Origin: Candidatus Latescibacterota bacterium
Lineage (GTDB): Bacteria > JAAXHH01 > JACQVL01
Reading direction: 5' to 3'
DNA: 33,002 nucleotides
Assembly (NCBI GenBank): GCA_016209865.1
Contig: JACQVL010000304.1
Location: 1 to 33,002, forward strand
Shown: in pieces, positions 21,131-23,986 of the stretch
Layout of the letters: every line of letters starts with the position of its first letter
Numbering within the stretch: the first letter of the stretch is position 1
Translations under genes and position numbers: made by a program
The notes under the pieces: model-generated
Told to the model about the DNA's origin: nothing
Databases searched by the model: none
The model's input: only the letters and a program-made list of their open reading frames with translations

Positions 21131-21559
21131 ATGGAGACGCACGAAGACCTCACACAGTCTGTCGAAGGTGGGGATGGGATCTTTGTCATCCGGGGGAGCG
21201 GCAATTGCCGTGAATGGAACGGGATTCACTACAAGATGGGTCTGTCGGCGAAGAACGTCGGCGCGCAGAAGCTGTCGATGAACGTCGCCACCGTCCCGCC
21301 CGGCGGGGTGGCGTACGCCCACGTTCACGTGGGGTTTGAGGTCATGCTCTACCTTCTGCACGGCCGGGTGCGCCACGAGTACGGGCCTGGCCTCAAGCAG
21401 GTGATCGACAACGAGGCCGGGGATTTCATCTACATCGAACCGGGAGTCCCCCACGAGGTGTTCAACCTGAGCGACACTGAACCGGTCGTGGCCGTGGTGG
21501 CGCGCTCCGACGCAGATGAGTGGCAACACATCATCCCGTACGACCGGAACAGCCTGTAA
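21131..21559 (+). CDS. cupin-domain protein
   Basis: 142 aa; GGVAYAHVHVGFEVMLYLLHGRVRHEYG...AGDFIYIEPGVPHEVFNLSD (cupin motifs 1 and 2). Confidence 0.88.
   Translation: METHEDLTQSVEGGDGIFVIRGSGNCREWNGIHYKMGLSAKNVGAQKLSMNVATVPPGGVAYAHVHVGFEVMLYLLHGRVRHEYGPGLKQVIDNEAGDFIYIEPGVPHEVFNLSDTEPVVAVVARSDADEWQHIIPYDRNSL
21522..21554 (+). repeat. 33-nt direct repeat, left copy (3' end of cupin gene)
   Basis: GGCAACACATCATCCCGTACGACCGGAACAGCC; 32/33 identical to 22660-22692. Confidence 0.95.
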
Positions 21560-21669
21560 ATCTTGTACTTCATGGGGGCCTGTTGTCTCGAAAGCTCACG
21601 AAAAGCTAACCAATTCGTGTCAAGTCCCGCTGAGCGTCCATCCTCATCCCACATTTCTTGTCGGACCTC

Positions 21670-21698
21670 TTGACACGCGAGACCAGATTTCTTATATT
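21670..21698 (+). promoter_or_regulatory. strong sigma70-like promoter
   Basis: TTGACA-N17-TATATT. Confidence 0.75.
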
Positions 21699-21704
21699 GG
21701 TTGG

Positions 21705-21778
21705 TGAAGATATCCCCCCTGTCCCTTCGGGGGCAGGGCGCGAGACCAAGTCCTTCGGGGCTTGGTCTCTGCTTTTTT
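21705..21778 (+). ncRNA. predicted short structured RNA / attenuated leader of the NYN gene
   Basis: Lies between the promoter and the intrinsic terminator. Hairpin 1 CCCTGTCCC-TTCG-GGGGCAGGG (21717-21738); hairpin 2 GAGACCAAGTCC-TTCG-GGGCTTGGTCTC (21742-21769); TSS inferred only. Confidence 0.5.
21742..21778 (+). terminator. rho-independent terminator
   Basis: 12-bp stem with UUCG tetraloop followed by TGC and TTTTTT. Confidence 0.8.
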
Positions 21779-21806
21779 ACCCACTGTAAGCCTCTCAGAA
21801 CGCCTC

Positions 21807-22430
21807 ATGCGAACGTCTGTCTATATTGATGGGTTCAACTTGTATTACGGCGCTCTCCGAGGGACGCCATACCAATGGTTAGACCTGAACAAAATGTGTT
21901 GCACGATCCTCCCCAAACACCAGATACACACCATCAAGTACTTCACGGCCCGAGTGAGCGCCCGACCGAATGATCCCGGTCAATCTGCGCGTCAGCAAAC
22001 CTACCTGAGAGCCTTACGGACGCTTCCCAACGTTGAGATCATCTTCGGGCATTTTCTGACGCATGAGGTGTACATGCCGCTCGCCGGGTGTCCCCCTCAG
22101 AATCAGCAGTATGTCAAGGTCATCAGAACCGAGGAGAAAGGGTCGGATGTCAATCTGGCGGCTCATCTGCTGAATGATGGGTACAAAGGGGAGTACGAGG
22201 TGGCGGTGGTGATCACGAATGACTCGGATTTACAGGCACCCATCAGAATTGTCCGTCAAGAGTTACAACTTCCTGTGGGCATCCTCAACCCGTACAGGCA
22301 GGCCAGCCGTGAACTGGTTCGCCATGCCTCCTTTGTCAAGACCATCCGGAAAGGGCTGCTCGCTGCCAGCCAATTTCCACCCACCTTGCAGGATTCAACG
22401 GGGTTGTTCTCGAAACCGAGTACCTGGTAG
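21807..22430 (+). CDS. NYN domain (DUF88/LabA-like, PIN-like nuclease fold) protein
   Basis: MRTSVYIDGFNLYYGALRGTPYQWLDL (YIDGFNL Asp), EEKGSDVNLAAHLLNDGY, VITNDSDLQAPI: NYN acidic residues; start set at 21807. Confidence 0.88.
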   Translation: MRTSVYIDGFNLYYGALRGTPYQWLDLNKMCCTILPKHQIHTIKYFTARVSARPNDPGQSARQQTYLRALRTLPNVEIIFGHFLTHEVYMPLAGCPPQNQQYVKVIRTEEKGSDVNLAAHLLNDGYKGEYEVAVVITNDSDLQAPIRIVRQELQLPVGILNPYRQASRELVRHASFVKTIRKGLLAASQFPPTLQDSTGLFSKPSTW

Positions 22431-22545
22431 GGGTATAATTGACCCCCAAAACTGGACCACGTGCTAAGATTGATGAGAAAGCAAAATCTTCCTCAGCAAA
22501 GCCTAAAAGAGGTCGTCTGAAAAAGCTAACCAGTAGCTAACGAAC

Positions 22546-22573
22546 TTGACATCACAGGACGGTTTTCTATAGA
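22546..22573 (+). promoter_or_regulatory. sigma70-like promoter upstream of kynU
   Basis: TTGACA-N16-TATAGA. Confidence 0.6.
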
Positions 22574-22629
22574 TTAGACAAAAGAGGGGCAAGAACGAAA
22601 CACAGACACCACAACACGTTGTGGAATCG

Positions 22630-22700
22630 GCATGATGAGGCGCTCTCGGCTGTGTGGAAGGCAACACATCATCCCGTACGATCGGAACAGCCAGGCGTGA
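22630..22700 (+). pseudogene. remnant of the 3' end of a cupin gene immediately upstream of kynU
   Basis: Frame reads ...RQHIIPYDRNSQA* against DEWQHIIPYDRNSL* of the intact cupin; contains the right copy of the 33-nt repeat (22660-22692). Confidence 0.65.
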
Positions 22701-23986
22701 TGAGCGATGGACGGCCGATGAGGGTTCGGACTGACCCTGGCTTCGCCCGCGAACAGGACGAGCGTGACGAACTGGCCGGGTTCCGGTCGCGGTTCGTCAT
22801 CGATGATCCCGCCCTGATTTATCTCGACGGCAACTCGCTCGGCCGGCTCCCTGTCGAGAGTGCGACTCGCGCCCAGCGGTTGGTTGGGGCTGAGTGGGGG
22901 CAACGGCTGATTCGCGGCTGGAACGAGGGATGGCTCGGTCTGGCTGAGCGTGTGGGGGCGAAGCTCGCCCGCCTGGTCGGAGCCGCCGAGGATGAGGTTA
23001 TCGTCGCCGACTCGACGTCGGTCAACCTCTTCAAGCTGGTCGCCGCCGCCTTGCAGGCTCGTCCAGGCCGGACGGTCGTCATCACGGATGACCTGAACTT
23101 TCCCTCAGACGTCTACATCCTCCAATCCGCCCTGAAGCTGGCCGGGCCGGCGCATCGTCTGGAGATTGTTCGCTCCCCCGACGGCCTGACGGTGCCCATC
23201 GAGACGCTGGCTGGGGCGATCGACTCCGATACCGCCCTGGTCGCGCTGTCGCACACCGCCTTCAAGAGCGGGTCTGTGTACGACATGGCTACCGTGACGG
23301 CGGTAGCCCACCGTGCGGGCGCGCTCATCCTCTGGGATGTGAGCCATTCGGTCGGCGCGATGCCGCTGTCGCTCGATCAGGCGGCCGTCGACCTGGCGGT
23401 GGGGTGCACGTACAAGTACGTGAACGGCGGGCCCGGCGCGCCGGCGTTCCTGTTCGTTCGCCGCGACCTGCACGACCGTCTGCACAACCCCATCGCTGGC
23501 TGGTTCGGCCACCAGGCTCAATTCGAGTTTACTTTGGAATACCGCCCAGCGCAGGGGATTCGGCGATTCCTCACCGGCACCCCCAGCGTCGTCTCCCTCG
23601 CCCTCATCGAGCCCGGCGTCGACCTGCTGCTCGAGGCTGGCCTTGAGCGGGTGCGAGCCAAATCCGTGCGCCAGACCGATTACCTGATCGCCCTGTGGGA
23701 GGCGCTCCTCGCGCCGGTCGGGTTCACTCTCCACTCCCCCCGCGACGCCGCGAGACGCGGGTCGCACGTCTCCCTCGGCCATCCTGACGGCCTGCGGATC
23801 GACCGGGCACTCATCGAGCAGATGCACGTCATCCCCGATTTCCGCTACCCGGATCACATCCGGCTCGGCGTCGCCCCGCTGTACACGACGTATACGGAGA
23901 TACACACCGCCGTCATGGCGCTGCGCACAGTGGTCGTGGAGCGGCTGTATGAGCAGTATCCGGCGACACGGCGCGGGGTGACGTAG
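22700..23986 (+). CDS. kynU: kynureninase
   Basis: IYLDGNSLGRLP, DNLNFPSDVYI-type segment, DVSHSVGAMPL, GCTYKYVNGGPGAPAFLFVRRDL, FRYPDHIRLGVAPLYTTY. ATG at 22700 overlaps the remnant's TGA (TGATG). Confidence 0.92.
   Translation: MSDGRPMRVRTDPGFAREQDERDELAGFRSRFVIDDPALIYLDGNSLGRLPVESATRAQRLVGAEWGQRLIRGWNEGWLGLAERVGAKLARLVGAAEDEVIVADSTSVNLFKLVAAALQARPGRTVVITDDLNFPSDVYILQSALKLAGPAHRLEIVRSPDGLTVPIETLAGAIDSDTALVALSHTAFKSGSVYDMATVTAVAHRAGALILWDVSHSVGAMPLSLDQAAVDLAVGCTYKYVNGGPGAPAFLFVRRDLHDRLHNPIAGWFGHQAQFEFTLEYRPAQGIRRFLTGTPSVVSLALIEPGVDLLLEAGLERVRAKSVRQTDYLIALWEALLAPVGFTLHSPRDAARRGSHVSLGHPDGLRIDRALIEQMHVIPDFRYPDHIRLGVAPLYTTYTEIHTAVMALRTVVVERLYEQYPATRRGVT

Follow-up and report, generated by a model that had tools for sequence, protein, structure and literature searches.

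A 1.1-kb cassette between a cupin gene and kynU

We analyzed a window of 33,002 nucleotides, positions 1 to 33,002 of contig JACQVL010000304.1 of a Candidatus Latescibacterota bacterium (GCA_016209865.1), in which a cupin gene (21131-21559, +; 142 aa; Pfam Cupin_2, E 7.6e-11), an NYN-domain gene (21807-22430, +; 207 aa; Pfam NYN, E 7e-9, above cut-off) and the kynureninase gene kynU (22700-23986, +; TIGR01814, above cut-off) lie in tandem. A 33-nt direct repeat is present at 21522-21554 and 22660-22692 on the same strand, with 32 of 33 positions identical and a start-to-start distance of 1138 bp. When up to 3 mismatches were allowed, only these two copies were found in the window, against 0 in 100 shuffles, and a whole-genome search with the segment found the core only at these two places. 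The left copy forms the last codons of the intact cupin gene, and this C-terminus is genuine, as the best distant homologue ends in NVVPYDQ followed by a stop. The right copy is a displaced remnant, which reads RQHIIPYDRNSQA followed by a stop in the cupin frame, and its TGA overlaps an ATG of kynU (TGATG, 22698-22702). Outside the core, similarity stops abruptly (22/60 identical to the left and 12/40 to the right). The intervening segment (21555-22659) has the lowest GC content of any 1.1-kb stretch of the window (0.519 against 0.623), and its only recognized protein gene is NYN, with no integrase or transposase seen. The observation made in an earlier note, that repeats of the cupin end flank an NYN cassette, was thus confirmed.

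Just inside each repeat, we found a pair of AGCTMAC motifs with 11-bp spacing (21593-21610 and 22524-22541, +), which the earlier note had missed. With up to one mismatch, these are the only two such pairs in the 3.75-Mb genome (a reversed-pattern control gave 0 forward and 1 reverse match). They resemble the arm sites of a recombinase and are candidates for such sites, but it remains possible, though tentative, that they are operators of a transcription regulator, since the right pair lies 4 bp before the TTGACA -35 box of a promoter-like site facing kynU (22546-22575, +). By contrast, the left pair is 59 bp upstream of its promoter, and no regulator gene was recognized in the cassette. The insertion may have given kynU a new promoter.

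Probable insertion of the cassette at gene 3' ends

The earlier note proposed that a segment carrying only the NYN gene and its regulatory DNA had been inserted between translationally coupled cupin and kynU genes, regenerating the cupin 3' end. This interpretation is supported in part. The anatomy fits attL and attR, with a direct repeat at a gene end and a regenerated gene, and insertion that regenerates the 3' end is well supported. To determine whether a cupin-kynU ancestor existed, as the note had suggested checking, we searched 15 genomes of the same order. None has the NYN gene. They do have kynU, and the 14 loci examined (about 55-61% identical) show no cupin just upstream, but these genomes also lack a close cupin homologue, so that this neither confirms nor refutes the proposed ancestor. 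Named kynU relatives have neither gene nearby, and no empty cupin-kynU site was found. The right repeat is absent from every kynU locus except that of the window, which speaks against a conserved kynU leader. BLASTN of the segment against plasmids and phages gave no match.

We next examined the flanks of other NYN loci (numbered here with the prefix L; genomes with the prefix G). Of 112 loci with enough flank, nine have flanking direct repeats scoring 22 or more, against 28 of 1566 random genomic segments, a 4- to 5-fold enrichment. This enrichment is moderate, so repeats alone do not prove insertion at the other loci. In two of the nine besides the window, the repeat is clearly the 3' end of the upstream gene, hsdS-like in L083 and hisA in L100 (gene names from reading the translations), with cassettes of 987 and 1016 bp. 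The repeats of L087, L084 and L059 are not clearly gene ends, and the strongest repeats of L150 lie far from the gene on the upstream side, with uncertain meaning. For hisA, in a Chloroflexota genome (G223), two relatives (G099 and G143) hold the empty site: hisA runs straight into the sequence that follows the remnant in G223, and the two alignments overlap by 62-64 nt, the duplicated end. The right copy continues into the native flank.

These observations do not establish the route of recombination. No integrase is encoded in the segment, and the three integrases found elsewhere in the genome are not tied to this element. Homologous crossover is a serious rival to site-specific integration, although we consider an origin of the repeat by single-crossover homologous recombination of a circular donor carrying the gene 3' end, or by a local duplication, somewhat less likely than not. 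Repeats at other loci are longer and more diverged (66-119 nt), and G183 and G287 already carry hisA-RNA-NYN followed by a HisA/HisF paralogue, so the donor of the G223 cassette may have been linked to hisA. RNA-NYN lies between hisA and a HisF-like gene in some Chloroflexota, and in relatives the HisF-like gene is preceded by a lone RNA without NYN (L217, L216, L215 and L129). By contrast, the core in the window is only 33 nt and sharply bounded, with the paired motifs inside both ends.

A structured RNA gene linked to NYN

The DNA upstream of NYN, which the earlier note had taken as regulatory, contains a separate structured RNA gene (21707-21778, +). A promoter predicted from sequence (TTGACA-17-TATATT, 21670-21698, +) has a -10 element that ends 8 nt before the start of the RNA match, and the RNA consists of hairpin 1 (21717-21738), a CGCGA linker and hairpin 2 (21742-21769), which is followed by a U run and would act as terminator. 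The same architecture precedes NYN homologues in unrelated genomes. In an alignment of 29 sequences, 12 of 14 pairs showed two-sided compensatory changes, and the covariation score exceeded all 500 shuffles and every slid control; this covariation is explained by a nested two-hairpin structure, the analysis being confined to nested pairs. No Rfam family matched above its gathering score, only RNAI of plasmid origins being found. A covariance model, R1, scored the window at 74 bits (E 6e-18), although the window is itself a training sequence.

We then searched 301 Chloroflexota genomes with R1 and obtained 106 hits, of which 70 lie within 500 nt of an NYN gene, 68 upstream on the same strand and 2 downstream and convergent. 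Since most of the 29 training sequences come from these genomes, we also searched 54 NYN loci from viral contigs that were not used for the model, recovered with an alignment rather than a single protein as query. All 32 hits (31 loci) in the 265 kb searched are adjacent to NYN, although some of these loci are near-duplicates of each other. Several NYN loci without a model hit still show the architecture by eye. The NYN-RNA pair recurs in bacteria of many phyla, on plasmids and in phages. A second RNA subtype (ACUCAACCCC..GAUUAAGUUC..GGGGUGAAAA plus terminator) precedes distant NYN homologues on proteobacterial plasmids and phages (L068, L071, L072, L074-L076, L078, L197, L200, L205 and L210); its covariation is weaker (5 of 17 pairs), and being too diverged for the model, the plasmid RNAs are grouped by architecture only.

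In most loci the RNA lies just upstream of NYN on the same strand and ends in a terminator-like hairpin, an arrangement that is also that of an attenuated leader. However, in L056 (a Paenarthrobacter plasmid), L062 and L165/166/168 (mycobacterial prophage type), L107 and L154, the RNA is downstream and convergent with its own promoter-like sequence, and in L164 it is upstream and divergent. Folded two-hairpin candidates in L151 and L156-158, and probably one read by eye in L035, are also divergent. Ten Chloroflexota NYN loci have two RNA copies, and Salmonella plasmid pUA1144 has four tandem hairpin units spaced 29-33 nt before the terminator, whereas the window has a single copy. Intact RNAs persist next to truncated NYN fragments (L116, 1501-1768; L134; L143) or frameshifted NYN genes. 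These results indicate that the RNA is not a cis leader, and a cis-acting attenuator or riboswitch-like element that only controls NYN expression is unlikely. About a third of the Chloroflexota hits lack a nearby NYN. Lone copies lie at intergenic sites (L120-L140), several in the same context in different genomes, and 22 lone RNAs had no common neighbor; they are possibly orphan antitoxins, or the RNA may have another, independent role.

A predicted NYN nuclease and its possible RNA antitoxin

The NYN fold was predicted with high confidence (AlphaFold pLDDT 94.6), and the best structural matches by Foldseek were VPA0982 (2qip, E 1e-8) and the NYN domain of eukaryotic MARF1, with a similar predicted fold and acidic active site but sequence identity of 11-15%; neither is known to have an RNA partner gene. 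D8, E110, D114 and D139 are invariant in 32 sequences and D141 is present in at least 90%, and the C-terminal P..W is also conserved in homologues. The protein matches the PADLOC candidate defence gene HEC-09 (PDLC04163, E 3.1e-43 over residues 2-207), for which only a protein model is listed and no RNA partner or mechanism was found described. The one paper found that mentions HEC-09 correlates it with phage susceptibility, not resistance, in Pseudomonas strains (PMC12447246). Homologues occur on 449 plasmid records of many genera and in 70 of the 301 Chloroflexota genomes, with up to five matching stretches in one. Some plasmid members, including L071, are annotated as 6-hydroxy-3-succinoylpyridine hydroxylase or HspA, which sits oddly with the NYN domain and could be re-examined.

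Taken together, these findings are best explained, with fair though not high confidence, by a compact, horizontally acquired cassette of two genes, a structured RNA of roughly 65-72 nt and an NYN-domain (PIN-like fold) nuclease, in which the RNA is most likely an antitoxin that binds and inhibits the nuclease. In this view, most transcripts would stop at hairpin 2, giving excess RNA, and read-through would give the nuclease mRNA; when the RNA supply falls, by cassette loss or phage takeover, the nuclease would cut cellular RNA. The cassette would have entered at the end of the cupin gene, supplying a replacement end and pushing the original one in front of kynU. Our analysis demonstrates the repeats and insertion-like anatomy, the conservation and covariation of the RNA, its linkage to NYN in variable orientation, its retention beside decayed NYN genes and the conservation of the catalytic residues, whereas RNA binding, toxicity, neutralization, phage defence and the recombination route are inferred, without expression, toxicity or binding data. 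Alternatively, the RNA might be a guide, cofactor or activator of an RNA-dependent defence nuclease, given the tight pairing in any orientation and the HEC-09 assignment. We consider this unlikely, because no variable guide-like segment is apparent and the RNA persists beside broken NYN genes, as expected for an antitoxin rather than a cofactor.

Like the type III toxin-antitoxin systems ToxIN, CptIN and TenpIN, the cassette has a small structured RNA (in some loci as tandem ~33-nt repeats), then a terminator and a predicted RNase gene, with plasmid and phage spread. However, the toxin candidate has the predicted NYN/PIN-like fold rather than the Kid/MazF-like fold of ToxN/CptN; the RNA forms two hairpins, often with a UUCG-type loop, not an established pseudoknot; it is often a single unit whose second hairpin is the terminator; and its gene can be divergent or convergent. 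The module would work like type III but should not be called a member, because the toxin fold differs and direct inhibition is only inferred. Genomic islands and prophages integrated at gene 3' ends (icd type) also show a direct repeat of the gene end, a supplied replacement end and a displaced original end, but the cassette is only ~1 kb, lacks an integrase and has different target genes at different loci. Phage morons are likewise self-contained promoter-gene-terminator units inserted between genes, but the cassette includes an RNA gene and is found on plasmids and chromosomes too. No paper pairing NYN with an RNA antitoxin was found, although prior description cannot be excluded because preprints and most subscription journals lay outside the search.

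It is about as likely as not that these loci represent a previously unrecognized class of RNA-controlled NYN nuclease modules, found from Chloroflexota to Klebsiella plasmids and mycobacterial prophages, in which an independent RNA gene placed in any orientation silences the nuclease, and which travels as an integrase-less ~1-kb cassette that inserts at gene 3' ends and rebuilds them. If the antitoxin reading is correct, HEC-09, whose relatives are carried on hundreds of sequenced plasmids, many of Klebsiella and E. coli, would gain its missing partner and a mechanism. It would also add a second nuclease fold to RNA-antitoxin systems, provide a new RNA family for Rfam, and offer a minimal mobile cassette whose mode of insertion can be tested.
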